Shown here: positions 4,768 to 24,091 of the stretch, piece after piece
How the letters are laid out: every line of letters begins with the position of its first letter
How positions within the stretch are numbered: the stretch's first letter is position 1
NCBI GenBank assembly: GCA_020050685.1
Contig: JAGVKG010000047.1
Coordinates: 1 to 57,393, forward strand
Length of the DNA: 57,393 bases
Reading direction: 5' to 3'
From: Candidatus Obscuribacterales bacterium
Lineage (GTDB): Bacteria; Cyanobacteriota; Vampirovibrionia; Obscuribacterales; Obscuribacteraceae
The notes under the pieces: model-generated
Told to the model about the DNA's origin: nothing
The model's database searches: none
The model's input: the letters and a program-made list of their open reading frames with translations, nothing else
Made by a program: the position numbers and the translations under genes

Positions 4768-7700
4768 TCAAATAGCACCAATATCCAACGAACTTTCTTC
4801 GTAATCACCCGTGTCAATTATTTGCTCGTCTCCACTCCCAGAAACTTGAGGCAAATAAGAAACTTTAGACGCGGCAGCAAACCCTGCTGTGTTCATTTTT
4901 ATTTCCGAGCCAGACACAGCTCCCAAGTTTCGGATAAGCACAACACCATTTTCAATTTCTATAAAGTTATTCGCAGGGGTTGGCAAGAACGTCACACCAC
5001 TTACGTTGATCTTTCCTTTTACTGAAGAACCAACTGATGCCGTTGTCCCACCTGCAACTATCGACGGTGGAGTCGGACGAGCCTTGAGTTCAGCAGCAAC
5101 TTGGCTCGTTGTGGTTCCGGCCAGAAGTTCAATGCCACCACCGCCACCGCTAGTGAAACCTTTGGCAGTGAATGTGTTTCCAAAATTATTGGGACCTATC
5201 GGTGTACCGCCGATGATACTATGACTGGCAATCACGCTTATGCTGCCACCGTCTGCCACATAATTCGAAGAGTCACCCAGATTAATATCTCCAGCCAATG
5301 CAACTAACTTTATTCCTGAGCCAAGCGAGTAAAGGAAGTTCGTCGTACCAAGAGTAATAGAATCGCCGGAAATGCTAATAGATCCGACCGTCTTCACCAT
5401 AGATTGCGAAACCAAGTTGTTGACATAAACGGATCCAACAAACTTAGCTCGCGCGCCGGCGGCGAACAATCCGTTCAAGGATACATCTCCCAAAGATTGA
5501 AATAACATATTGGAGCCCGAACCAAAATTCTCGACTTGCTCAAGAACTATGCCACTTGCTCCATTGACTGTCAATTTGCCAACGACAAGCATGATATTGC
5601 CGCCACCAATTGAAACATCTTCAATCATGCCTTGACCAGTAGAAACACCCGCATTAAACGTCAGATCTTTGTCGACGATAAAATTATTCGTATTGTCCAA
5701 GAAAATATCGTGCTTAGAATTGAACGTGACTGATTTCACGCCCTGGCAAGCAACACTGGAAAGTAGCAAGTCATCACCGCTATTGATTATCAAATCCTGA
5801 CCAGTAGAAACTGCCCCAGTAATATTTACCGTGGAAGAAAAGTTAAACGTAGCAGTGGTGAAGGCATACAGACCATTCAGGACGGTAACACCTTCAAGGC
5901 TAGGTCCGTTGATGACCAAATTACCATTTGTCAATTTCGATGAGCCAATAATGATCTTGTCTGCAATCATCAGCACGGCTAGATCAACAATCTTTCCAGG
6001 AACCTCAGGAATTAGGTTCTGAATTTTGATCGTGCCAAGATTGGTATTTCCCCTGCCGGAAATGATCGAAACACCGCCAAGCGTTCCGTCTTCTCCGCTA
6101 TCAATTGGTGAATTGCCACCCAAGGTCAAACTGACGGAGCCTTTATCCGCTGTATTACGCAAGACCAGCGATCGGCTCGATATTTTTCCGATATTAACAA
6201 TGGACAAAGTGTTAGCGCCTATGATTTCCAGCCTTTGTGTATCATCCGATCGTAATCGTCCCGTGGGCGCAATTGACAAGGAGGTATTTCCCAAATCCAA
6301 CCTGGCGGTAGAAGAAAACGGCGGTGTGGTAGTGTAGGAGCCGACAAAATCGAGTATGCCGGTTATCGTTGCTGTCTTCAGCGATGGCGACATAATCAGT
6401 CGCGTACTTGCTTGAGCGTCTGTCAAAATAATCCCTACCGCCATAGCAAATTCTTCGCCGCTTACACCGGTGCGTATATTGAATGCCGTCATTGGTCTGT
6501 TGAATTCCAGACCCGGAATCAAAATTGAGTTAGGAGCAGTATTGCCAGGTAATGCCAAATTTGATGCAGCACCACTTGCGGTAAGTCCAATTGTTTGAGC
6601 AGTGCCTCTGGTAATTTGATAAACAGCCAGCGCTTGAGCAGGAGTTAGTTTTGTCCTCGGGGAATTTATGTTTAACGGATCGATAAGAAGATTCACCGTT
6701 TTGGTTACACCATCTTGAGTTATTTCAACTGAATCAGCACCTTGTGCATCGACAGTGATTTTTCCCTGGATCTTTTGTCCGAAGACACGTGATGTAGAAA
6801 GCGTATCAGCAGGGCCACCAGCAACGAGTGGTCCGGCTGAACCGTTAACTGATGCATTGCCTATTTCAAACATCGCACCAGGCAAAGCATATTCGCTGGC
6901 AACTGAAGAACCAAGATCAAATGCCAAAGGTATCGGTTGACAATCGAAAGTCTGAATGATTATCAATCCGCTTTCTCCGTCAGCACCGCCACCGCTTCCT
7001 TTGCCGCCAAGAGTTATAACGCTGCCACCACTAGATCCTCTAATTTGTACAGTGCCAGCATCAAGTTCTACGGCACCACCAGCTCCGCCTACTTTCATGG
7101 CTCCATTGCCGGCACCACCTTTGACGCTCACCATGCCACCAATGTCTATATAACCAATGCGTTTAGTAACGTCCACATCGAACTCAAAACTGGGAGAAAG
7201 AAATACGATTGTTCCTCCATCGGCACCATTCTGATTATCTGTGGCTGCACCACCTTGGGAAAGTACACTGCCTTTAATCTTGGTGCCTGCAGCTATAAGA
7301 ACAATGTTTGCGCCAGCGCCTGGCAAATGCGCGCCGGATTGCTTGAGTCCGCCTGCGTTAATAGAACCACCAACGCTAAATAATGAATCCGAACATTGCA
7401 TAGTGATCTCGCCACCACCATCTTGCCCCAGCGAGATGATGTCGGATGTAATGGTCATGCCTGTTAGTGCAGCTATAAGTATATTTCCACCAGTGCCAAG
7501 CGTGCCGGTCGCATTAACACTACCATTGATAATCCCAACTCCAGTTAGGGCGCCAGCTGTGATTGCGCCGCCAACTTCGCCTTGGGCACTCAGCGAGCCA
7601 CCAACGAAAAGTTCTCGAACCGCACCAATGGCAATTTCACCGGCAGTAAATCCTTGATCAACGCTATTTTTTGCATCGGTGATCACTCCACCGCGAATTA

Positions 7701-10131
7701 TTACTTCCACGCCGTGCATCAACACCTTACCGCCACCACCAGGTCCAGAGGTATTAATCGCTCCTGTTTCGACTCCCATTAGCTCAGAGGTCAAAGTTAC
7801 TAATCCACCAGTGCCAAATTGCTTTTGCCCACTCAACATATATGACGAAGCAGTAGCGGAAACTGTACCGCCTATCTGAATTGCACCATCACTGGTAACC
7901 GAGATATTGCCACCAGATATGATGCCATTGGCATTTATACCTTTTGCCACTCGTGCAGTTCCAGTCTCGGTAACAATGGTGACATCGCCAGCTTCTCCGG
8001 CCGATGAACTGGTAAATATTCCACCAATTGGATTTAAGGAGAGCACTGACTTTTTCGAATAGACATAGCCAACATTTACACCGCCATTTCCCGAAGAGCT
8101 AAGTGAGACATCTCCACCTCCCAGCTTACCGGCGGCCGTAATATTGCCCAGAACATCTATACCTTCGGGAGCGTCAATTGTCACGTTGTTACCGGTGGCA
8201 TTGGTGCCCGTTGTGGTGATATTACCCATGACCATGACAGACGATGTCGTGCTAGAAAGAGCCACTTCTCCGCCATCCAGTGGTGAACCGGCATTGATTA
8301 GACCAACGACTGCTAATAAACCAGGAGCATTTATAGTTACATCGCCAGCACGAACGCCTGCTGATGTATTGATATTGCCATTTCGGAGTATTGAGTCGCC
8401 AATCAACACCGCTGTACTGGCAGAAGGTGTGCCGCTAATGCCACCGCCATCTTGAGCCAGGGTACCATTGTGAAAATGCATTGTCGCATCAATATCAGGT
8501 GTAGCGCCGGCGATGTTAACGGATCCGCCAAAACGGCTTCCACGAGTGTCGATGCCACCACAGACACAAATTTCGCCTCCATCTCCTTGAACAACAACGT
8601 TCCCGCCATCGAGTTTACCTGAGCTTGTATTGATGCCACCAATTCTGATCAGACCAGATGAATCTTCACTACCTGAATGAGCATAAATGTGTACATTACC
8701 GCCACGGAATGCGCCAGCTGAAACAGTTTTGATTTGCACCAACTCCAGACCGATGCCTCCACCCTCGTCCGATGCATCGGAAACAGAGTAAGTAGTAGTG
8801 CTGTTAATGTCTCCATTCGGACCAGTGCCAGGCGATATCGTGTAGCCGGCCATAATATAAAGATCTCCGCCGCGACCGGTCTTGCTCGATAGATCTATCA
8901 AGTTAACCGTTTCGTAAGCCACGATATTGGTCTTTGCCAAGATCGCCACATCTTGGCCGGGATAAGAAATATTTTCGCCAAGCAGCACATCGCCACCGCT
9001 ATTGACGTAAGTGGGGTCTCCAGTTAATTCCATATGACCGAGCGATAACCGCCCATCAGCCACTTCCACGTGCGCGTCTCCAGCCGTAACATTTATCGTA
9101 CCGTCAATGCGATTCACCTTCAGATCGACAAAACCATCACCACCAAAGATGTTCATGGAATTGGCGGCAAAGTTTCCGCCGTAAACGTTCGTGAGATTCT
9201 TGGCGGTGAAGCCAACATCGCGTAAAACGATCATGCCTTGATTGGCGGAAACACTGCCACCAACATTGTTAACCACTAAAGACTGGCTAGATGCAGAATT
9301 AAAATAAACATTGCCGGACAGTGCTGAAATGTTTCCGGAATTTGTCAACTTGCCGGCATTGCTATAAAGCAAGACACCCTGCCCACCAGAAATTGTTGCC
9401 GGCGTAGAGTTACCACTCAGATTGGAAATTTCCCCCGCCGCATAGAGCGACAAAAACCCAGATGCACTAATTGTCCCGGAATTGCTAATGTCGGATGCAG
9501 AAAACAAAGTCATATTAACTGGACGCTCAGAGCCATCCTGCCCAGTGACCAGACTGCCGCTAACCAACACATTCCCCGCCCGAATATTCACCATATTTTC
9601 GGGATTATTTCCCAGACCCATCACGATGCCCTGCGCAGAAAGCGTCTGGGAAACGTGCAAATCAGAGGCTCCAGACAAAACTGCCATCACCGCTTCTGGC
9701 ACAACCAAATTTGAAAACCTAGACGTGTTCAAGTCGGAAACAGAAAAACTTCCGCCGATAGCCTCGCCCAAAGAACCAAGGGTTAAGTTTTGCGAATTGC
9801 CCGTGATCACCTGGGCTAATGCCACAAACTCCGATGGCGTCAGCAAATCACCGGCACCAACCTGACGGCTCGCCCCGCCCACATTAATGCTGGCCTGCGC
9901 GAAACTGCCAAGCATTGCCTGGGTTACGGCAACCGAAGCCACAGTGGACGCCAAATCCAAATCGAGGTGCCTGCCCGCTGCTTGACGAAAGGCTGCCGCA
10001 TTGCCAGCGAATTGCGCTTGCGCCTGGCGCGCTTCCCGCCTTTCAGCAAATGTGCCTTCAGCAAAAGCCAAAGGCGCAAAAGTCGGCAAAAGCAACAACA
10101 CAACTGCCACAAGAACAAGGGCTTTGTTCAT
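4768..10131 (-). CDS. Large exported beta-helix repeat protein with two head modules
   Basis: A 1787-residue exported protein. It starts at ATG 10131 with a signal peptide (hydrophobic core VLVAVVLLLLPTFAPLA, cleavage near AFA-E). The head module INVGGASRQVGAGDLLTP lies at about residues 80-100 and matches the paralogue that follows. Glycine-rich beta-helix repeats (GG.V...S..G.I...G.I.) follow to about residue 1100. A second, diverged copy of the head module (LTPAQALAVYQITRGTAQ, near base 6640) then starts a further beta-helix segment, which suggests an ancient fusion of two such proteins. The C-terminus is short, acidic and non-repetitive (about residues 1765-1787), with no autotransporter barrel, LPXTG or dockerin. 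The stop is 36 bases from the next gene's start, so the two are probably one transcript. Role: cell-surface or secreted structural protein or adhesin (inferred from architecture). Confidence 0.8.
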   Translation of the reverse strand: MNKALVLVAVVLLLLPTFAPLAFAEGTFAERREARQAQAQFAGNAAAFRQAAGRHLDLDLASTVASVAVTQAMLGSFAQASINVGGASRQVGAGDLLTPSEFVALAQVITGNSQNLTLGSLGEAIGGSFSVSDLNTSRFSNLVVPEAVMAVLSGASDLHVSQTLSAQGIVMGLGNNPENMVNIRAGNVLVSGSLVTGQDGSERPVNMTLFSASDISNSGTISASGFLSLYAAGEISNLSGNSTPATISGGQGVLLYSNAGKLTNSGNISALSGNVYFNSASSQSLVVNNVGGSVSANQGMIVLRDVGFTAKNLTNVYGGNFAANSMNIFGGDGFVDLKVNRIDGTINVTAGDAHVEVADGRLSLGHMELTGDPTYVNSGGDVLLGENISYPGQDVAILAKTNIVAYETVNLIDLSSKTGRGGDLYIMAGYTISPGTGPNGDINSTTTYSVSDASDEGGGIGLELVQIKTVSAGAFRGGNVHIYAHSGSEDSSGLIRIGGINTSSGKLDGGNVVVQGDGGEICVCGGIDTRGSRFGGSVNIAGATPDIDATMHFHNGTLAQDGGGISGTPSASTAVLIGDSILRNGNINTSAGVRAGDVTINAPGLLAVVGLINAGSPLDGGEVALSSTTSSVMVMGNITTTGTNATGNNVTIDAPEGIDVLGNITAAGKLGGGDVSLSSSGNGGVNVGYVYSKKSVLSLNPIGGIFTSSSAGEAGDVTIVTETGTARVAKGINANGIISGGNISVTSDGAIQIGGTVSATASSYMLSGQKQFGTGGLVTLTSELMGVETGAINTSGPGGGGKVLMHGVEVIIRGGVITDAKNSVDQGFTAGEIAIGAVRELFVGGSLSAQGEVGGAITAGALTGVGIINGSVNATGTLGTGGNILIAALTGMTITSDIISLGQDGGGEITMQCSDSLFSVGGSINAGGLKQSGAHLPGAGANIVLIAAGTKIKGSVLSQGGAATDNQNGADGGTIVFLSPSFEFDVDVTKRIGYIDIGGMVSVKGGAGNGAMKVGGAGGAVELDAGTVQIRGSSGGSVITLGGKGSGGGADGESGLIIIQTFDCQPIPLAFDLGSSVASEYALPGAMFEIGNASVNGSAGPLVAGGPADTLSTSRVFGQKIQGKITVDAQGADSVEITQDGVTKTVNLLIDPLNINSPRTKLTPAQALAVYQITRGTAQTIGLTASGAASNLALPGNTAPNSILIPGLEFNRPMTAFNIRTGVSGEEFAMAVGIILTDAQASTRLIMSPSLKTATITGILDFVGSYTTTPPFSSTARLDLGNTSLSIAPTGRLRSDDTQRLEIIGANTLSIVNIGKISSRSLVLRNTADKGSVSLTLGGNSPIDSGEDGTLGGVSIISGRGNTNLGTIKIQNLIPEVPGKIVDLAVLMIADKIIIGSSKLTNGNLVINGPSLEGVTVLNGLYAFTTATFNFSSTVNITGAVSTGQDLIINSGDDLLLSSVACQGVKSVTFNSKHDIFLDNTNNFIVDKDLTFNAGVSTGQGMIEDVSIGGGNIMLVVGKLTVNGASGIVLEQVENFGSGSNMLFQSLGDVSLNGLFAAGARAKFVGSVYVNNLVSQSMVKTVGSISISGDSITLGTTNFLYSLGSGIKLVALAGDINLGDSSNYVADGGSISVIASHSIIGGTPIGPNNFGNTFTAKGFTSGGGGGIELLAGTTTSQVAAELKARPTPPSIVAGGTTASVGSSVKGKINVSGVTFLPTPANNFIEIENGVVLIRNLGAVSGSEIKMNTAGFAAASKVSYLPQVSGSGDEQIIDTGDYEESSLDIGAI

Positions 10132-15470: not shown

Positions 15471-15938
15471 TTAAGCTGACAAGGCTTGTAAAACCGGCAG
15501 CTTCAAAGTGTAGGTGCGGTAGGCTTGGTCTTGTTCGTAGCCTAGGGACTCGTAGAGTTTTTGGGCTTTGGTGTTGGTGTGGGCAGTTTGGAGATCGATG
15601 GCTACGGCGCCGAACTCAAGCGCGAATTTTTCGGCGGCTTTCATCAAGAGTTTGGCGATGCCGTTTTTGCGGTACTGATCGTCGACGAAAAGATCGGATA
15701 AATAAACCACTGGTGCCATGGAAAGGGATGAGACTGTGGGATAGAGTTGCGTGAAGCCGACGGCTTTGCCACTTTCATTGACAGCAATGAAAATTGTCGA
15801 GCGATTGCGCATCAGGTTTTCGCGCAGAAAAGCACGGGCTCTTTCTGGTTGTGGTTCTTGTTTGTAGAAATCGCGATAAGCGTTGAATAGTGGCAGGAGT
15901 GCCTCGACATCGCTAAGTCCAACTTTTCTAATTTCCAT
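15471..15938 (-). CDS. GNAT-family N-acyltransferase of the hydrazine-type cluster
   Basis: 155 residues, a typical single GNAT domain that moves an acyl group from acyl-CoA to an amine. Visible are the beta4 strand and acyl-CoA loop (VVYLSDLFVDDQYRKNGIAK; the Q-x3-G-I/A motif) and the C-terminal YESLGYEQD. ATG 15938 has AGGAG seven bases upstream and overlaps the oxidase stop by one base (TAATG). It is the last gene of the cluster operon. In triacsin biosynthesis a GNAT enzyme succinylates hydrazinoacetic acid, so acylation of a hydrazine product, either as a step or as self-protection, is a sensible guess. The actual substrate is unknown. Confidence 0.8.
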   Translation of the reverse strand: MEIRKVGLSDVEALLPLFNAYRDFYKQEPQPERARAFLRENLMRNRSTIFIAVNESGKAVGFTQLYPTVSSLSMAPVVYLSDLFVDDQYRKNGIAKLLMKAAEKFALEFGAVAIDLQTAHTNTKAQKLYESLGYEQDQAYRTYTLKLPVLQALSA

Positions 15939-17011
15939 TAGTTTTCTCCTATTATTTTTACAACTTCTTTGGCAAATGCTGGGGCTATCTTGATGCCACC
16001 ACCGCTCATTCCTGTTGCGAGCACGAGTCCGGTTGCATCGTCGGCACGTTTGATCATGCCGCGCTCGTCTTCAGTAAATGCATCGTAACTTCGTTTTACA
16101 ATAGACATTTGTTTGTCGTTCAACCAAACGAAACGATTCCTTAGTAGCGCGTCAAGCTTCTGAGAAGCAACGTTATCTACAACGTGATCATATTGAAATT
16201 CATTGACTAATTTATCGTCGCGCAAAAATCCAGCAATTGCATTGCCGCTCGGCAAGGGAAACAGGTAGACACCGGAAACCGCATCGAGAAACGCCGTGTC
16301 CAAATGTTTAGCTGCACCCTCATAGATATTGTATTGAAATGATTTAGCGGAGATCTTATCAAGGTCAGTTGCACTTGGTTCCAGCAATTGGTTGCTCCAA
16401 GCACCAGCAGCGAGAACTACATTTTTGGTCTCGATGATGCCACTTGCTGTACGGACACCGGACACTTGCCCATCGACAATCAGGATTTTTTCAACTGGTG
16501 TGTTTTCAAAAACTTTGCCACCATTTCTCACTGCCGCCTCTACCCACGAGCGACAAGTTAGTTTGGTATCAACATTGCCGGCATTCGGCTCATAAACAAA
16601 AGCAATCTCGGCGTCTGATTCGATTGACTCTCGTAAAGTTGTCGTTGGTGGCAGGCTCGATAACGATATTGTGTAGCCGCTATCCTGCAAGGCTCTGATA
16701 CCACTGTCAACTTTGCTAGCAAAGTCCAGAGATACTAATGCCGCGAATCCGGTTTTAGTGAATCCGCAAGAACCGCCCACATCCGCTTCGAAATTCTGAT
16801 AGTAATCAAAACTTTCCCGCGTCAGTTTGCCTATATAAGGATCGCCAACGAACTTGCGAATGAATCCGCCCGACTCACCGGTCGTACGCCCACTAATCTC
16901 GCCACCTTCGACTAAAACAACTTTACCGAGATTAGCCCTGGAAAGTTCATAGAAAGTAGCAGAGCCAGCAATGCCACCACCAATTACAACAATGTCCGCC
17001 GAATTTTGCAC
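15938..17011 (-). CDS. DAO-type FAD-dependent amine/amino-acid oxidase
   Basis: 357 residues in the glycine/D-amino-acid oxidase family. The N-terminal FAD-binding motif is DIVVIGGGIAGSATFYELSR (about residues 6-25). The TTGESGGFIRK segment and the C-terminal GLVLATGMSGGGIKIAPAFA, which closes the flavin site, follow. GTG 17011 was chosen because AAGGAG lies six bases upstream; upstream TTG codons overlap the cupin gene. In known hydrazine pathways a protein of this family (Spb39, Tri27) oxidises the lysine-derived hydrazine at a C-N bond, releasing hydrazinoacetic acid and an aminoadipate semialdehyde. Its position beside the cupin, hydroxylase and MetRS-like genes supports the same job here. 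It could instead oxidise another secondary amine. Confidence 0.85.
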   Translation of the reverse strand: MQNSADIVVIGGGIAGSATFYELSRANLGKVVLVEGGEISGRTTGESGGFIRKFVGDPYIGKLTRESFDYYQNFEADVGGSCGFTKTGFAALVSLDFASKVDSGIRALQDSGYTISLSSLPPTTTLRESIESDAEIAFVYEPNAGNVDTKLTCRSWVEAAVRNGGKVFENTPVEKILIVDGQVSGVRTASGIIETKNVVLAAGAWSNQLLEPSATDLDKISAKSFQYNIYEGAAKHLDTAFLDAVSGVYLFPLPSGNAIAGFLRDDKLVNEFQYDHVVDNVASQKLDALLRNRFVWLNDKQMSIVKRSYDAFTEDERGMIKRADDATGLVLATGMSGGGIKIAPAFAKEVVKIIGEN

Positions 17012-17021
17012 AGCTAGCTCC

Positions 17022-17363
17022 TTACCAGTAAATCGAAGCAATCACCAGAGGCTTATCCGATTCATTGCGCACTTGATGTTCTTTGAACGAAGCAAAATAG
17101 AAAACTTCTTGTTCGCGCACTGAAACAGATTGCCCCTCGTATTCCAAGATGCCTTCGCCCGAGAGAATTGTCCAGCACTCTTCTACCTTGTGCTTATCCA
17201 AAGGTGTGATGCAGCCAGGCATAATCATAAATATGGTCGACTTGAAGGGAGGACGTGCTTCCTTAGCTTCAAAATCAAGCGGCTTTACTTCCACACCTTG
17301 TGAAATTCGCTCTGATTCGGCAAACGTAAGTTTTGGACTGATTAAATTACATGCGAGTGACAA
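17022..17363 (-). CDS. Small cupin, proposed N-N bond-forming partner
   Basis: 113 residues, one cupin barrel. Motif 1 is PGCITPLDKHKVEECWTILS (metal ligands probably the His of DKH and a Glu of EE) and motif 2 is FASFKEHQVRNES (His). It starts at TTG 17363 with GGAGG nine bases upstream, overlapping the hydroxylase stop by 17 bases; the next gene follows after 10 bases. In Spb40 and Tri28 a cupin domain is fused to a MetRS-like domain, and together they join N6-hydroxylysine to an amino acid and rearrange the product to a hydrazine. Here the cupin is a separate chain, so I infer it acts with the MetRS-like protein encoded two genes upstream. A cupin alone would be uninformative; the context carries the call. 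Confidence 0.75.
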   Translation of the reverse strand: MSLACNLISPKLTFAESERISQGVEVKPLDFEAKEARPPFKSTIFMIMPGCITPLDKHKVEECWTILSGEGILEYEGQSVSVREQEVFYFASFKEHQVRNESDKPLVIASIYW

Positions 17364-18744
17364 ATCTCGACACCTCCGCGTGATGTGGCATTTGCTTTAC
17401 CACAGGGTACGATGGGCAGGCTGCTTTCTGCATCGGCATTTGCGAAGGCAAAGGAACAGTCTCTGTACTCGCCCAATCAAGTGCCGCACTTTCGTCAGAC
17501 AAATCGTATACCGTTTTCTCCATCAAGCTATTGATGATGGTGGCACTCCGCCACGCCATCAAGCTCAGGTTCGGATCGGCAACGCCATGACTATGCCTTG
17601 CTGCATTTTGCACGTAGATCCTATTTTGATCTGGACCATCCCATTCAATCGAGAAATCTTGATTGACTTTGAACTTGCCATTTTCCAAAGCAATTTTGTC
17701 GCTTAAGCCAGACAAGTAGGATGGGAATTTCCATTGGTATCCCGTGCAAAGAATGACGATGTCTGCATCAACAAGTCTCGCGGCTGCTGTTTGTTCATCG
17801 GCAAGCACAAGTTGTCTTGAGCTTCCCGAATCAGTCATGTCCAGAAGTCTGTGGTGCGAGAAGAACTGCACTAATTTGCCCCGCTGCTCAATGCACTCCA
17901 AGACATAAAGTCTTTGGTAAATGGCATCAAGAAGATGCATGGACACACCATCGCTTGCCAATGTTTGATCTTCAACCAGCTCCCTCTTCTTTTCCTGGGG
18001 CAAGCCATAAAAGAATTCACTGTATTTTGGCGTGAATAATTCATTAGCAAACACAGAATCATCAATTGGGGCAAACTGAGCACGCTTGGTCACCCAAACA
18101 ATTTCTGATGGCAACTCATTGCTGTCTGCCAAAAGTTCTTGCACGATTTCGGCACCACTTTGTCCGCCACCGATAATCGCGACTCTTTTGCCTTTCCATT
18201 GCTTGGCGTGCACAAGAAAGTCCTTAACGTGGAACGTCTTGTCGCTAAGTAATGGTCTGGCAAAATCCGGAACATTGGCGGTCAGCCCATTGCCGAGCAC
18301 CAAGTGTTTCCCGCGAATCACTCGCTTGGATGTCTGCATTACAAAGCAAGACTTTTTGAATTTGATGTCTTGCACGTTTTCACCAAACACCATGTTCGGC
18401 AAAGACTTGCTCACCCAATCCAAGTACAAATTAAATTCCATTCTCAACACATGATTGAATCGTGCATTGATGAATCTGTAGAGCCGCTTACTTTGTTTCA
18501 AGTAGGCTAGGAAAGAATATGGATTGGTTGGATCAGCCAAAGTGACCAAATCCTTCAAGTAACTAACTTGAATTTCCGCATTGGGAAACAATTGTCCGGC
18601 GTGCCAAACAAAAGATTCGCGCCCATCAAAGAACTTGCTAGTAACTTCACCGTGTGGTGAGAGCAATGCTGCCAAGCTCATGTTGAAGGGACCTATCCCC
18701 ACACCAAGCAAGTCGACAGTTTCAAAATCGTTATTCACTATCAT
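17347..18744 (-). CDS. L-lysine/L-ornithine N-hydroxylase (flavin monooxygenase)
   Basis: 465 residues in the IucD/SidA/PvdA family, which uses FAD, NADPH and oxygen to hydroxylate the side-chain amine of lysine or ornithine. The FAD motif is LLGVGIGPFN near residue 12. Next come the family's WHAGQLFPNAEIQVSYLKDL and DPTNPYSFLAYLKQ, the NADPH motif RVAIIGGGQSGAEI (about 180-195), and ILCTGYQWKFPSYL and LSLMAWRSATIINSL near the end. Start: ATG 18744, AGGAG upstream, four-base ATGA overlap with the MetRS-like gene. Lysine is favoured as substrate because the neighbours match hydrazine clusters that begin with N6-hydroxylysine. A hydroxamate siderophore is the alternative, but no NIS synthetase, NRPS or TonB-dependent receptor is nearby. 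Confidence 0.88.
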   Translation of the reverse strand: MIVNNDFETVDLLGVGIGPFNMSLAALLSPHGEVTSKFFDGRESFVWHAGQLFPNAEIQVSYLKDLVTLADPTNPYSFLAYLKQSKRLYRFINARFNHVLRMEFNLYLDWVSKSLPNMVFGENVQDIKFKKSCFVMQTSKRVIRGKHLVLGNGLTANVPDFARPLLSDKTFHVKDFLVHAKQWKGKRVAIIGGGQSGAEIVQELLADSNELPSEIVWVTKRAQFAPIDDSVFANELFTPKYSEFFYGLPQEKKRELVEDQTLASDGVSMHLLDAIYQRLYVLECIEQRGKLVQFFSHHRLLDMTDSGSSRQLVLADEQTAAARLVDADIVILCTGYQWKFPSYLSGLSDKIALENGKFKVNQDFSIEWDGPDQNRIYVQNAARHSHGVADPNLSLMAWRSATIINSLMEKTVYDLSDESAALDWASTETVPLPSQMPMQKAACPSYPVVKQMPHHAEVSRFVTRM

Positions 18745-20369
18745 GACGCTACTCCTGCAAATGTTTGTGTGTTTACTACATGTAGATTCTGACCAAGTCC
18801 GAGTGGTTTGATCTGGCGCGTATTGATCAAGACATTGCGTTGAATTGGTTGGCTGGGCAATTCTTGGAAGTTGAGAATTGTTGGTTCGCCAACATAACCA
18901 AGTGCTGTCCAAATTGTTTGCGCCAATTGCGGCATAAACGGAGCAACCAAGAGCACAAGACCTTTCAACCACCAGAAGTATTCTGCTGTTGTTTGATCGA
19001 GCGCACTTCCTACCGCCAACCATTCGTCAATCAAAACTGTCGCTTGATGCGGTTGGAAGTTAGCAGGGTCCAAGTAATTTGCTTGCTTGGATGTGAGCTT
19101 TTCCAATTTCTCCGCCAAAGTAGCGTTGAAAGTAGTTTTCACAGTTGCCGGCAAATTAGCTAGCGCCTTGACCACAGAATTGGCTACCCAGTTTACAGTT
19201 TTGTTGTAATAGGCAAGAAACTCATCAGCAACAAAATTGCCACCCTGATTCCGAACATCAATGGTCGATAAATACAATCGAACAATGTCGCTCGAGGCAC
19301 CATCGCGATTGATAATCTCATCAACCCAAATCGCGTGGCGACGGCTGGTAGAGAATTTACTGCCGTCAAGATCATAAAAATAGTTGACCAAGTAATAGTC
19401 GAACTGTTTATATTCTGGGCACCCTGCAGTGACGCCTGAGAAACTGCCAAGAAATGGGACAGCGTTGTCAATGCCGAAACTAGCGATGGTAGTGATTTGT
19501 GTATCTTTTGTATGATTTGCTTGCTCAAAAACATTTTTACTAGAACCGAGAAGTTGTCCGGCAATTTCGCCAAGCATTAGGAAATATGCAAAAACAACTG
19601 AGTAATTGAACATCCGACTGTCGGCATCTTGTCCGACCACTGGCATACCCCATTCGGTGCTTGCCGTTAACCTGATCAGTCCGCCTTGTCGTTCCAAAAA
19701 TTGCTTATAAATGTTTTGAATTTTTTGGTTGACGCCTTTGGCGGTCAGGTCTGCAAATGCCGGCAGTTTCATAAAGAGGTTTGTCACTTGCTTCTGAATG
19801 CGGCGGTCGCTTTTTGCTCCCGCGTTTGCTTCAAGCACTTCTTCCGGGCGAAAGTGAGCACCACAATCTTCACAGAAGTAACCAGCAACGCCCTGCTTAC
19901 AGTGCGGGCATTTACCCGTCAGCCAACAGCCTGTCATGTATCTGTTCAAATCAAAATCCCAAGTCACAGATTCCTTTACGGCAGTCGTGGCACCATTTGC
20001 TTGCAACTGAGCAAGAATTTGGTTGTGCCATTTTTTATAAGTCTGGCTCGCTTTGTCACTTATGGGATTGACGAACTGAGCCACATCGATATTCATCGAT
20101 TTGAGGTCGGCTGTAATCATCTCGTGATATTTATTGCAGACTTCCGCCGGCGTCAAACCTTCTTTGGCGGCTTGTCCAGTCACGTAGGAATCGAAACTGT
20201 CCGTACCGGAAAGAATCACAGCCTTGTGTCCATTCAGTCTGAGGAAGCGCGCCAGCACATCCACCGTCAGGTATGGTCCACCAATGTGTCCTAAGTGCAG
20301 CCTGCCATTTGGTGTTGGCACCGATGGTATCAGTAGGAAGTTTCTTGACTTTGTGGAATTGCTTATCAT
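18741..20369 (-). CDS. Methionyl-tRNA-synthetase-like amino-acid activating enzyme
   Basis: 542 residues with the class I synthetase core of MetRS. HLGH (residues 25-28) is the HIGH motif. CPHC and CEDC zinc knuckles lie at about 150-175. The STEWGMPV segment follows, and KFSTS (about 337-341) stands where KMSKS should be. A helical region resembling the MetRS anticodon domain follows, without a C-terminal tRNA-binding domain. A housekeeping role is unlikely: the gene sits inside a seven-gene biosynthetic operon and overlaps the N-hydroxylase by four bases. In hydrazine biosynthesis (Spb40, Tri28) a MetRS-like domain adenylates an amino acid such as glycine and passes it to N6-hydroxylysine, after which the cupin part forms the N-N bond. 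I infer the same reaction here with a separate cupin. Start: ATG 20369, AGGA just upstream. Confidence 0.85.
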   Translation of the reverse strand: MISNSTKSRNFLLIPSVPTPNGRLHLGHIGGPYLTVDVLARFLRLNGHKAVILSGTDSFDSYVTGQAAKEGLTPAEVCNKYHEMITADLKSMNIDVAQFVNPISDKASQTYKKWHNQILAQLQANGATTAVKESVTWDFDLNRYMTGCWLTGKCPHCKQGVAGYFCEDCGAHFRPEEVLEANAGAKSDRRIQKQVTNLFMKLPAFADLTAKGVNQKIQNIYKQFLERQGGLIRLTASTEWGMPVVGQDADSRMFNYSVVFAYFLMLGEIAGQLLGSSKNVFEQANHTKDTQITTIASFGIDNAVPFLGSFSGVTAGCPEYKQFDYYLVNYFYDLDGSKFSTSRRHAIWVDEIINRDGASSDIVRLYLSTIDVRNQGGNFVADEFLAYYNKTVNWVANSVVKALANLPATVKTTFNATLAEKLEKLTSKQANYLDPANFQPHQATVLIDEWLAVGSALDQTTAEYFWWLKGLVLLVAPFMPQLAQTIWTALGYVGEPTILNFQELPSQPIQRNVLINTRQIKPLGLGQNLHVVNTQTFAGVAS

Positions 20370-20416: not shown

Positions 20417-21745
20417 TTATGCGTATTGCTTTCGATGTTTTGGAATTAGCTCAAGCTGCGCATTGTGTTTAATCGTCTCCGGTTTTCGCAGCCACTCGCC
20501 TTCGCTGCCACCACGCCAGAGAACCACGCCTGGGCGGAAACGTATAAATGAATAACTAAATGCCATGCAGTAGGAGCCAACTCCGGCGAATAACAAAAGA
20601 TCTCCCGACTTAAGCGCCGGCAATGGCAGCGGCGTATGCAATTGATCTTTTTGATTGCATGTCGGGCCAAACAATTGCGTTTGCCGAATGTTCTCGACTT
20701 GGGCAAAGCACTTTACTGGGAAATCGTAGACATAGCTTGTCGCCAAAGTGTTTATGCCGGCATCGCAAATCACTGCTGCCGAATTATCATCCGCCTCCGG
20801 TCTCCGTCCAACCACAGATGTAAGCAATGCACCAAAGGCTTCAAACAAAGTTCTGCCTGGTTCAAAGATCAACATCGCTGGTTTGGCAAGACTATTGAGA
20901 TATGGCAGCAAGGGAGTGATAACGGCTTCAGCGTATGCACCTGCATCCGGCAAAGGAAATTCAGTTATCTTGTTTTCGCCCGTGCTCTCTTCAATGTAAG
21001 GGGCAATGCCAGCCAAGCCACCACCAACATCGATCCAACTAAGCTCGATACCAAATACATCTTTAAGCTCAAGGGCAAAATCATTGAAGAGTTGTCCAAG
21101 CTTAGCAAAGTAACTCAGGTCGCGAATATTGGTGCCAATGTGCGAGTGCAATCCGCTGAGAGAAAGATTCGGCGATTCAATAATCCGCTTGACCAAGGCC
21201 AGCGTTTTTGGATTCTGCAAACCGTTCGTCACCGGAAATCCAAATCTATTCCAAGGCATTCCCGCATCCGGAAAATGCACCCGCATGCCAATGCCAACTT
21301 TTGTCTGCAATTGCTCAGCAATTTTTTCAATCCGATCAATTTCATCTTCATGATCGCAATTGATAATCGCACCATCTTCAATTGCTTGCACAAGTTCCGC
21401 ATCCAACTTCATTGGTCCATTGAAAATAATTTTCTGCGCAGGCTCTTTCAATCCTCTTGCCACTTCGTACTCAATACCGGAAACAACTTCTGCATGTGCG
21501 CCTTCTGCATGCAGCAAAGCCAAAAGGCCAGGCACAAAATTTGTCTTGTAAGAAATTGATATCAAAGAATTCGCATATAGTTTCTGCGTTGCGCCCTGCA
21601 AAGCTTGGAGTCTAGCAAGCACTCCAGCCTCATCGATAATAAATAAGGGCGTGCCAAACTGCTCCGCAAATTGCCTAGCTACACTCTCGTCAAATTGAGA
21701 GAAGGCTTTATTTGCTGGAACCTGTTGTAGTAGTGTGTTGTTCAT
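20417..21745 (-). CDS. PLP-dependent amino-acid decarboxylase (LysA/ornithine type)
   Basis: 442 residues, fold III group IV decarboxylase. The PLP lysine is Lys67 in ISISYKTN. HSHIGT, DVGGGLAG and EPGRTLFEAFG bind the cofactor phosphate. FGPTCNQKD stands for the CESxD motif with the catalytic Cys and Asp kept, and GVGSYCMAFSYSF replaces the usual GAY loop. Relatives decarboxylate diaminopimelate, ornithine, lysine or carboxynorspermidine. It overlaps the GntR gene by 38 bases and lies 47 bases before the MetRS-like gene. It may decarboxylate a lysine-derived or hydrazino acid intermediate, or supply a precursor. Substrate cannot be read from motifs. The departures from consensus (CNQKD, GSY) argue against simple lysine biosynthesis. 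Confidence 0.82.
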   Translation of the reverse strand: MNNTLLQQVPANKAFSQFDESVARQFAEQFGTPLFIIDEAGVLARLQALQGATQKLYANSLISISYKTNFVPGLLALLHAEGAHAEVVSGIEYEVARGLKEPAQKIIFNGPMKLDAELVQAIEDGAIINCDHEDEIDRIEKIAEQLQTKVGIGMRVHFPDAGMPWNRFGFPVTNGLQNPKTLALVKRIIESPNLSLSGLHSHIGTNIRDLSYFAKLGQLFNDFALELKDVFGIELSWIDVGGGLAGIAPYIEESTGENKITEFPLPDAGAYAEAVITPLLPYLNSLAKPAMLIFEPGRTLFEAFGALLTSVVGRRPEADDNSAAVICDAGINTLATSYVYDFPVKCFAQVENIRQTQLFGPTCNQKDQLHTPLPLPALKSGDLLLFAGVGSYCMAFSYSFIRFRPGVVLWRGGSEGEWLRKPETIKHNAQLELIPKHRKQYA

Positions 21746-22502
21746 GATTAGAAGTCTTGTTCGTCTTGTTAGTTGATTTTTCTTTTGACTGAGATTTAGA
21801 ACGCGAACCGGAAACGCCTTGTTTGTCTTTCAATACGTCAGCAATATATTCTGCGGAACCCATATAGTTGGCTGTGGAAATCTTGCAAGCCTCTTCAATG
21901 TTGCGAGCTAATACTGCTGACATCAATCGCTCATCATCATTCAAACATCGCATCAATACCGCTTCGTCATTATGGTGAGCATGCAGGCAAACTACGCGGT
22001 AGCGCGCTGCTTGGTCGTACATCATGTCGCGTATCTTCAATAACCAGGGAGAATTGCATCCTTTAACCAGAGCATAGAGAAACTCTTTTTGCAGTTCGTC
22101 CCATTTATTAGGATCGACATTTTTGTTGATGCGCGGATCAATATATTTAGAGAATCGATGCCACGTAGCTAAAATGCCTGCTTCCCATTCGTCATCGCCA
22201 TTCTGAATCGCCAGTTTCAGCGCTAGACTTTCAATGTGAGCACGTATGTTGTATATATCGTACAGCTCTTCCAAAGAAAGCGGCGCGACATAAAAACCAC
22301 ATTGTTCTTCTACATTTACTAATCCATTGGAGGCCAAGCGACAAAGCGCCTCGCGCAACGGACTGCCACTGATACCATAACGCTTCTTCAACGCTTCCAT
22401 CGGCAACTTTTCATTTGGTGCCAATAGGCCTGTGAGAATGTCAGCTTGGATCTGTTCCAGTACCACCGCTACTTTGGTTGGCTTTCTAGTTTTTTCAACC
22501 AT
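21708..22502 (-). CDS. GntR/FadR-family transcription regulator of the cluster
   Basis: 264 residues. The N-terminal winged HTH is clear (ILTGLLAPNEKLPMEALKKR, GISGSPLREALCRL; about residues 20-70). The rest is a helical FCD-type effector domain (about 85-225), which normally binds a small carboxylate with a metal. The last 40 residues are an unusual Ser/Thr/Lys/Asn-rich tail that overlaps the next gene. ATG 22502 was chosen over a TTG 12 bases upstream; GAGG lies about 12 bases before it. It heads the biosynthetic operon and lies divergent to the ATP-grasp gene, so it probably represses both promoters until an intermediate or substrate binds. Confidence 0.82.
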   Translation of the reverse strand: MVEKTRKPTKVAVVLEQIQADILTGLLAPNEKLPMEALKKRYGISGSPLREALCRLASNGLVNVEEQCGFYVAPLSLEELYDIYNIRAHIESLALKLAIQNGDDEWEAGILATWHRFSKYIDPRINKNVDPNKWDELQKEFLYALVKGCNSPWLLKIRDMMYDQAARYRVVCLHAHHNDEAVLMRCLNDDERLMSAVLARNIEEACKISTANYMGSAEYIADVLKDKQGVSGSRSKSQSKEKSTNKTNKTSNHEQHTTTTGSSK

Positions 22503-22783
22503 GTCTCTTATCAACCTCTAAATATGGGCGGCTTCGTTCGATGGGAATACAATACTCGGATTTTCGACAATTTGCAAATTATCGATTATTTAGTCAACTT
22601 TCGATTTATTGCCACATGTCTCTGTTATGCTGTCTAAGCTCGGGAAAGCCCAGCTGATTGCACTTTACACGGAGGAAGCTTGTCGGGACGCAATCCTTAT
22701 ATATGACAAACAGCTATGAAAGACAGCTGTCATCCTGAGGAGCATGCAATGCGACGAAGGACCTCTCATGATCGAAAATTCCC
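22503..22783. promoter_or_regulatory. Divergent control region of the biosynthetic cluster
   Basis: 281 bases between the GntR start and the ATP-grasp start. AATTTGCAAATT (22569-22580) is a perfect 12-bp palindrome about 67 bases upstream of the regulator gene and is a candidate operator. GACAGCTGTC (22722-22731) is another palindrome. A dispersed-repeat fragment occupies 22728-22768. Promoters for both directions must lie here, but no -35/-10 pair is convincing. Confidence 0.45.
22728..22768 (+). repeat. Fragment of a dispersed repeat (second copy near 28932-28971)
   Basis: About 41 bases starting GTCATCCTGAGGAGCATG match, with about three differences, the reverse complement of 28932-28971. 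Here only one arm of that inverted-repeat element is present, ending 15 bases before the ATP-grasp start. This points to a mobile or recombining repeat that left a half copy in the promoter or leader. Confidence 0.7.
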
Positions 22784-24091
22784 ATGACAAGCAACAATGC
22801 CAAGATGAAAACATTCATTATCCTGCAAAAAATAGTTCTCTTCAGAGCCGACTGGAGAAACCTAATTCCATCTGCGCAATCTTCCGCAGAAAATCGCGAC
22901 TACCGCATCATCTTATTAGTGCACGAACCTACGTACGAAAAACTTGCCGAATCACAAAAGCATTGTTTTGAACATATATTTAGGATCAAGACTTTTGATT
23001 TTGAGAATGTCAAAACAACTGTGCAACAAATCATGAGTGAATATCCAGGAGAAACGCGCATCATCACAAACGATGAACTGTGCATTGATTTGGCCGCAAA
23101 CGTGAGAGCGGAATTGTCGCTGCCTGGTGACACACCTGAGCTTGTGCAACCTTTCATCAATAAAACTGTTACCAAGGCGAAGCTTGCCTCAAGTGGTATC
23201 AGATTGCCAAAGTTCATTCATTTCGATCCGAAAGCTTACGCGGCAGATCAGGTTGGTTATGTGTCAGAAATTGAATCCACTCTCAAGTTTCCCATTTTTG
23301 CCAAGCCAATTAACAGTGCGGCAAGTCAGTGCACAACTTTGTTGACGAACTTGCAAGAGTTAATTGGCTGGTGCCAAGTTCATCAAGCCGATGATAATTT
23401 CGAGCTGGATGAATACATCGAAGGGGTGCTCTTCCATTGTGAATCTGTAATTAGGGACAACGAAATTGTCTTTGCCCAAGCCGGAGAAAATGCGCATCCT
23501 TGTTTTGACTTTATGTCTGGCAAAGTCACAGGCAGCATTGCCTTGCCGGATGATGATCTGATGGGCAAGCAAATTCTTGCATTCAATAGACAAGTTATTA
23601 CCGCACTAAAGACATTGCCGAATTGCGTCACGCATTTGGAAGTATTCAGAAAGCATGATGGCGAATTAGTGTTTCTAGAAATTGCTTGTCGAGCGCCAGG
23701 TGGAATGATAGTGCAAATGCACCAGTACCATTGTGGTATCAACTTCGAAGAAGCACACTTCCGCATGCAAATGGGATTGCCATTCGATGCAAGCATCACC
23801 CCAGGCCCAAATTACGCCTGGGCATGGTTCCCCAATGAACCTGGCACAGTCGCAGGCTTCGCATCTCTCCCCATAAAAAGCGATCACCAAATCACCTGGA
23901 AAGTAGAAATCGGCGACAAACTTACAAGTGCAGAAAGCTTAGTAGATTACGCCGGCGGCGTCATTTTGTGGAACGACAACTACGACGATCTACGAAATGA
24001 TTTCACATCCCTAACCAACTTCCCAACACCATTCATCTTGACCGATGAGCGATCGCTCGTTATATCCGCCGTAGGGGTCAGGCATGCCTGA
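22784..24091 (+). CDS. ATP-grasp carboxylate-amine ligase, divergent member of the cluster
   Basis: 435 residues. ATP-grasp enzymes form an acyl phosphate and couple it to an amine (peptide, amide or similar bond). Visible are KFPIFAKPINSAASQ (ATP-binding lysine and loop, about 165-180), ELDEYIEGVLFHCESVI, and VFLEIACRAPGGMIVQ with the metal-binding Glu and following Arg/Gly (about 300). An N-terminal pre-ATP-grasp fold is present. ATG 22784 is used; MKTFII at 22805 is an alternative, and neither has a strong ribosome site. It reads away from the GntR operon across a shared control region. It would fit amide coupling of a hydrazino acid to another amino acid. The stop codon lies inside a palindromic repeat, so the last residues may be acquired sequence. 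Confidence 0.82.
   Translation: MTSNNAKMKTFIILQKIVLFRADWRNLIPSAQSSAENRDYRIILLVHEPTYEKLAESQKHCFEHIFRIKTFDFENVKTTVQQIMSEYPGETRIITNDELCIDLAANVRAELSLPGDTPELVQPFINKTVTKAKLASSGIRLPKFIHFDPKAYAADQVGYVSEIESTLKFPIFAKPINSAASQCTTLLTNLQELIGWCQVHQADDNFELDEYIEGVLFHCESVIRDNEIVFAQAGENAHPCFDFMSGKVTGSIALPDDDLMGKQILAFNRQVITALKTLPNCVTHLEVFRKHDGELVFLEIACRAPGGMIVQMHQYHCGINFEEAHFRMQMGLPFDASITPGPNYAWAWFPNEPGTVAGFASLPIKSDHQITWKVEIGDKLTSAESLVDYAGGVILWNDNYDDLRNDFTSLTNFPTPFILTDERSLVISAVGVRHA

Follow-up and report, generated by a model that had tools for sequence, protein, structure and literature searches.

A minus-strand operon in a 57,393-nucleotide stretch of DNA from a Candidatus Obscuribacterales bacterium (assembly GCA_020050685.1, contig JAGVKG010000047.1; the whole stretch is called the window below) very probably encodes a two-component, or split, ATP-dependent hydrazine synthetase, whose reaction steps we infer from characterised homologues. 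The compact operon runs in the order GntR regulator, pyridoxal-phosphate (PLP) decarboxylase, methionyl-tRNA synthetase (MetRS)-like protein, flavin-dependent N-hydroxylase (NMO), zinc cupin, flavin adenine dinucleotide (FAD)-dependent amine oxidase of the DAO family and GNAT acetyltransferase, with overlaps of a few bases between several adjacent genes. An earlier note on this DNA had described the cupin (113 residues) and the MetRS-like protein (542 residues) as separate genes flanking the N-hydroxylase gene, and both open reading frames (ORFs) were recovered exactly in coordinates, strand and length; the NMO gene occupies the ~1.4 kb that separates them, and they thus do not form a single chain of the Spb40/Tri28 type. 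The window combines the defining features of the hydrazine synthetase family, namely a MetRS-like domain, a zinc cupin, a clustered flavin N-hydroxylase and a shared history of cupin and MetRS-like protein. What is observed here is the gene content, the homology, the conservation of catalytic residues and of the operon, and the co-evolution; a chance origin of the operon is excluded because homologous operons with the same gene order occur in other genomes. The split state itself is not a discovery, because standalone pairs have already been characterised elsewhere.

The cupin contains a Cupin_2 domain (PF07883, E 2e-14), and its closest relative in the PDB is 5UQP (E 1.8e-13), which was renamed RHS1 by Zhao 2021 and shown biochemically to be a standalone zinc-dependent N-N-forming cupin (PMC8664883). 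The zinc ligands of RHS1 are D63, H65, E69 and H103, and replacing any one of the four by alanine abolishes activity (PMC8664883). In the alignment they correspond to D56, H58, E62 and H96 of the window cupin, in which the essential glutamate is therefore present, and all 97 related cupins compared have H58, E62 and H96. The cupin and MetRS-like trees agree (mirror-tree Spearman rho 0.74, 59 loci), and the agreement holds among split pairs only (rho 0.55, 30 loci), with none of 2000 permutations as high. Because of this agreement the cupin groups with the N-N-forming cupins rather than with unrelated families, the outcome that the earlier note had named as refuting its reading, and the assignment of the pair to the hydrazine-forming enzymes is borne out. 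The predicted fold of a fused relative (predicted template-modelling score (pTM) 0.85) has the cupin as a small part of the chain, so that domain docking is not readable from it; a predicted contact is in any case not decisive for the pairing, because the separated domains of PyrN work in trans (PMC8664883).

The MetRS-like protein keeps the ATP motifs HLGH and KFSTS intact. KFSTS had been put forward as a changed motif; it is present as described but not peculiar, since nearly all of the 60 family members compared carry it, as does the annotated MetG of Acaryochloris, and for the latter reason KFSTS was rejected as a mark of lost tRNA function. The zinc knuckles said to be kept are reduced to one Cys4 site (CPHC...CEDC), the second knuckle being absent, whereas the helical C-terminal domain is indeed retained, with helices at residues 381-489 in an AlphaFold model (predicted local distance difference test 89, pTM 0.91) that aligned over its full length to MetRS structures. 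By sequence (phmmer, E 1.6e-36) and by predicted fold (Foldseek, E 1e-32) the top PDB match is 9L8V, described there as the C-terminal domain of PyrN bound to glutamyl-sulfamoyl-adenosine. The methionine pocket is replaced, as Tyr15, Trp253 and His301 of Escherichia coli MetG are not retained, and the protein is not the housekeeping MetRS, because a separate, better metG match lies on another contig of the genome (C34; 235 versus 129 bits). The NCBIfam methionine--tRNA ligase model NF008863 nevertheless scores it at 610 bits against a cut-off of 551, and the equivalog models NF008863 and NF008861 match 12 of the 12 hydrazine synthetase family members tested. Automatic annotation can therefore label these hydrazine synthetases methionine--tRNA ligases, as has happened to the homologue in Robbsia.

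Lysine is the likely substrate of the NMO, as judged from residue comparison and the NMO tree. Its substrate residues K64, N234, N392 and S394 are as in lysine-type homologues, and the same set is found in the lysine hydroxylase of Rhodococcus jostii RHA1 and in the azaserine and N-nitroglycine loci; the homologue from Robbsia carries the diamine set instead. In the tree the window NMO clusters with the enzymes of the RHA1, azaserine and N-nitroglycine loci, apart from the diamine hydroxylases. DesB is without the carboxylate-binding Lys and Asn of SidA/PvdA, and its Asp would repel a carboxylate (PMC8009421); FbsI and DfoA resemble DesB at the diamine-signature positions in the alignment. The window NMO retains Lys64, Asn234 and Ser394 with no Asp and thus does not group by signature with these diamine N-hydroxylases. 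The decarboxylase is nearest to FigC (268 bits to 7kh2 versus 124 for the next), an N-citrylornithine decarboxylase that decarboxylates conjugated ornithine and not free ornithine (PMC7857480), and a counterpart (57%) stands at the same place in the locus of a gammaproteobacterial metagenome-assembled genome (MAG; L029).

By analogy with the characterised enzymes, the N-hydroxylase would convert an amino-acid side-chain amine, most likely N6 of L-lysine, to a hydroxylamine, and the MetRS-like protein would adenylate a second amino acid, probably neither glycine nor glutamate. With no tRNA involved, the hydroxylamine oxygen would receive the activated amino acid, and the unstable O-acyl ester so formed may be captured by the free zinc cupin; N-O cleavage and N-N coupling via Glu62 would then yield a hydrazine joining both amino acids. 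The DAO-family oxidase is the candidate for oxidative cleavage of the adduct, probably at one C-N bond. Once the conjugate has formed, its lysine part probably loses the alpha-carboxylate to the FigC-like decarboxylase, a role proposed by analogy because FigC acts only after conjugation. The GNAT protein may acetylate the product, and the GntR protein would regulate the operon. The sequence of tailoring reactions and the identity of the product are speculative.

Several observations weigh against this scheme. The overall phmmer score of the NMO is nearer to the putrescine and cadaverine hydroxylases (227 versus 171 bits), its position equal to N275/N323 of PvdA/SidA is not Asn, the amino-acid pocket of the MetRS-like protein differs both from the glycine type seen at the azaserine and N-nitroglycine loci and from the glutamate type of RHA1, the papers searched yielded no biochemistry on the window clade, and the nearest relatives likely tested, the Corallococcus loci, are ~34% identical. 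A diamine substrate was first favoured on the phmmer scores and dropped after the residue and tree tests. The corresponding alternative, in which the decarboxylase acts first on lysine or ornithine to give cadaverine or putrescine and the same split synthetase then uses the N-hydroxy-diamine formed by the NMO, would suit the decarboxylase gene directly upstream and the diamine partners known in the hydrazine synthetase family (review PMC11705231). It is nonetheless unlikely, for the NMO keeps the carboxylate-binding Lys64, Asn234 and Ser394, is without the signature (Ala/Ser, Leu, Asp, Gly) common to DesB, FbsI, DfoA and the Robbsia homologue and sits in the lysine-type clade, while the relative closest to the decarboxylase does not act on free ornithine. 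The NCBIfam name, the fold and the helical domain could be taken as signs of a second MetRS that charges tRNA and withstands stress or antibiotics, with the cupin belonging elsewhere; this is hardly credible given the replaced methionine pocket, PyrN as the nearest structure, the linkage with NMO and cupin that is fixed across several phyla, and a cupin tree congruent with that of the MetRS-like proteins.

Of the 103 related loci compared, which were not drawn at random, 50 are split and 46 fused. In MetRS-like trees rooted on one or on five MetRS sequences the deep lineages are split and a single nested clade holds the fused proteins, and the split and fused labels need 3-4 changes on the rooted trees versus 20-28 for shuffled labels. 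The cupin is N-terminal in 46 of 46 fused proteins, with an inter-domain gap of 9-21 residues, as one fusion would give. The split state is thus most likely ancestral to the fused state, as had been suggested, although the strength of this conclusion is moderate, as the branches near the root are long, the sampling is biased and support is moderate. The opposite course, in which a fused ancestor gave rise to the window lineage by separation of its domains, gains something from those long branches and from two groups inside the fused clade that look re-split (L065/L072/L101 and L088/L096). It appears improbable, however, since with the five-MetRS root several deep lineages are all split, the fused proteins are nested with the cupin always N-terminal, and the window clade has no fused member.

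The suggestion that the window arrangement itself shows how the fusion arose did not hold, as the hydroxylase gene lies between the two components; the order MetRS, NMO, cupin, found in the window, Legionella and Corallococcus, cannot be that precursor. In the tree rooted on five MetRS sequences, the sister of the fused clade (support 93/86) has the cupin directly upstream of the MetRS gene, overlapping it or within ~30 bases (L011, L013, L014, L023 and L025), and this order is a plausible precursor because stop loss and a small frame adjustment would join the genes.

The host assembly (4.2 Mb, 98.7% complete) is without photosystem II. The MetRS-like gene was found in three of the 53 genomes searched in the host's order, one of the order-wide matches being another Candidatus Obscuribacterales (L055). 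In a search with NF008863 the only match among 386 genomes sampled across the phylum was the window, so the operon is patchy. A single-protein query against genome contigs gave no matches; a small-alignment query gave 80 loci. Beyond the order, the operon is most closely related to those of Legionella and the gammaproteobacterial MAG, a pattern that suggests horizontal transfer. The window, L027, L029 and Legionella form one clade with support 100/100, and in each of them, as in L055, a GntR gene lies upstream of the MetRS-like gene. L027 (SBAT01000214.1) is titled as a Chloroflexi MAG, but it is apparently identical to a contig of G435, another of the order-wide matches, whose placement is in the family of the window host, and the title looks wrong. 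The order GntR, decarboxylase, MetRS, NMO, cupin, DAO recurs in the gammaproteobacterial MAG, and eight genomes of the Legionella group (Legionella and Fluoribacter; L028, L030-L035 and L059) carry GntR, MetRS-like, NMO and cupin genes, most with a GNAT gene after them. Several of these carriers are blue-white autofluorescent species. In Legionella the locus is without the decarboxylase and Asn replaces Lys64 of the NMO, which points to a possible change of substrate. The literature search turned up no characterised product for the Obscuribacterales-Legionella branch. We tentatively suggest, as a possibility short of an even chance, that this branch is a distinct hydrazine pathway with a new activated amino acid and a decarboxylated amino-alkyl hydrazine as product; the FigC-like decarboxylase would act on the finished N-N conjugate, and Legionella, with its changed hydroxylase and an operon without decarboxylase, would reach a related product from another precursor.

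Table 1. Genes of the operon and its flank in the window, with the evidence for each assignment
Feature	Coordinates	Strand	Evidence
GNAT acetyltransferase, last operon gene	15471..15938	-	PF00583 E 4e-20; GNAT follows cupin in Legionella too
FAD-dependent amine oxidase (DAO family)	15938..17041	-	PF01266 E 3e-46; same place in L029 operon, 41%
Zinc cupin, standalone, putative N-N bond-forming component, 113 aa	17022..17363	-	Cupin_2; PDB match 5UQP
Flavin-dependent N-hydroxylase, probably L-lysine N6-hydroxylase, 465 aa	17347..18744	-	PF13434 E 2e-99; substrate residues; NMO tree
MetRS-like protein, putative amino-acid-activating component, 542 aa	18741..20369	-	PDB match 9L8V (phmmer, Foldseek); NF008863
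PLP decarboxylase, alanine-racemase fold, closest to FigC/FslC	20417..21745	-	7kh2 268 bits; FslC model 308 bits
GntR/FCD regulator, first operon gene	21708..22514	-	PF00392 and PF07729; conserved upstream of MetRS-like gene
ATP-grasp-like protein, divergent from GntR	22784..24091	+	Weak Dala_Dala_lig_C
Cytochrome P450	24176..25411	-	PF00067 E 7.5e-35

The NMO ORF listed from 19023 is an over-call; the gene more likely begins with the ATG at 18744, which overlaps the stop codon of the MetRS-like gene as ATGA and is preceded by AGGAG. The start codon of the cupin gene is the TTG at 17363, and a GGAGG lies nine bases upstream of it. The ATP-grasp-like protein is possibly a tailoring ligase and the P450 possibly a tailoring enzyme, both of uncertain cluster membership; ATP-grasp genes are recurrent in related clusters, and this gene and the adjoining P450 may belong to the cluster. 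Elsewhere in the window an ORF of 1787 aa (4768-10131, minus strand) has no Pfam match. Among the related loci, a MetRS-like gene on a Klebsiella plasmid (L022, 4703-7452) adjoins a KamA radical S-adenosylmethionine gene with no cupin, and the tblastn search that found it also matched 188 Escherichia plasmids (raw matches). A plasmid of Nostoc sp. UHCC 0926 (L009, 7986-8339) carries an RHS1-like cupin by an FAD oxidoreductase, a nonribosomal peptide synthetase adenylation gene and a PLP decarboxylase; the stretch contains no MetRS-like gene. The NMO of Rhizobium etli CIAT 652 lies in two ORFs (L024, 3474-4766) and the MetRS-like gene of Leisingera S132 in fragments (L016, 6315-7252), both apparently broken.

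What is new here is the host, a non-photosynthetic cyanobacterium, the branch common to it and Legionella, and the evidence for split before fused. The analysis adds an N-N bond-forming branch in non-photosynthetic cyanobacteria and Legionella, and the rooted tree indicates a two-gene form before the fused one together with a plausible fusion-precursor arrangement. Free, separable components would also be practical for combining MetRS-like specificities with cupins in biocatalysis.

The statement in the earlier note that the characterised enzymes are single chains is outdated. The enzymes are sometimes two standalone proteins, and such gene pairs, that of RHS1 among them, have been tested (Zhao 2021, PMC8664883); Afn8/Afn9 of albofungin is another standalone pair (review PMC11705231). 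Spb40 (s56-p1) and Tri28 (triacsin) have the same two catalytic domains and an associated NMO and FAD oxidase, but they are fused and of the glycine type; the comparison was made via the fused glycine-type homologues of the azaserine and N-nitroglycine loci, and it is in these that the pocket differs. PyrN (pyrazomycin; 9L8V) shares with the window protein the fold over its full length, HLGH, a KFST motif and the Cys4 zinc site, but is a single chain with an N-terminal cupin and a glutamate substrate, at ~22% identity in the fold alignment. FigC/FslC (PMC7857480), the closest solved relative of the operon decarboxylase, belongs to the rhizoferrin pathway, whereas the substrate of the window enzyme is predicted. 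The Corallococcus loci have the order MetRS, NMO, cupin and fall in the same large split clade as the window, but no GntR or decarboxylase gene was found there by similarity; Cor1-Cor2, from another species of Corallococcus, appears in a review (PMC11705231) as a characterised hydrazine synthetase, under accessions not matched to these loci. In RHA1, RHS1 and its MetRS-like partner are, as in the window, encoded with the lysine N6-hydroxylase by separate genes in one cluster, and the zinc ligands (Asp/His/Glu/His) and the NMO substrate residues agree with those of the window. However, the RHA1 MetRS-like protein is 27% identical to that of the window and has a glutamate-type pocket, the gene order is cupin, another gene, NMO, MetRS, and a saccharopine-dehydrogenase gene takes the place of the DAO and the FigC-like decarboxylase.

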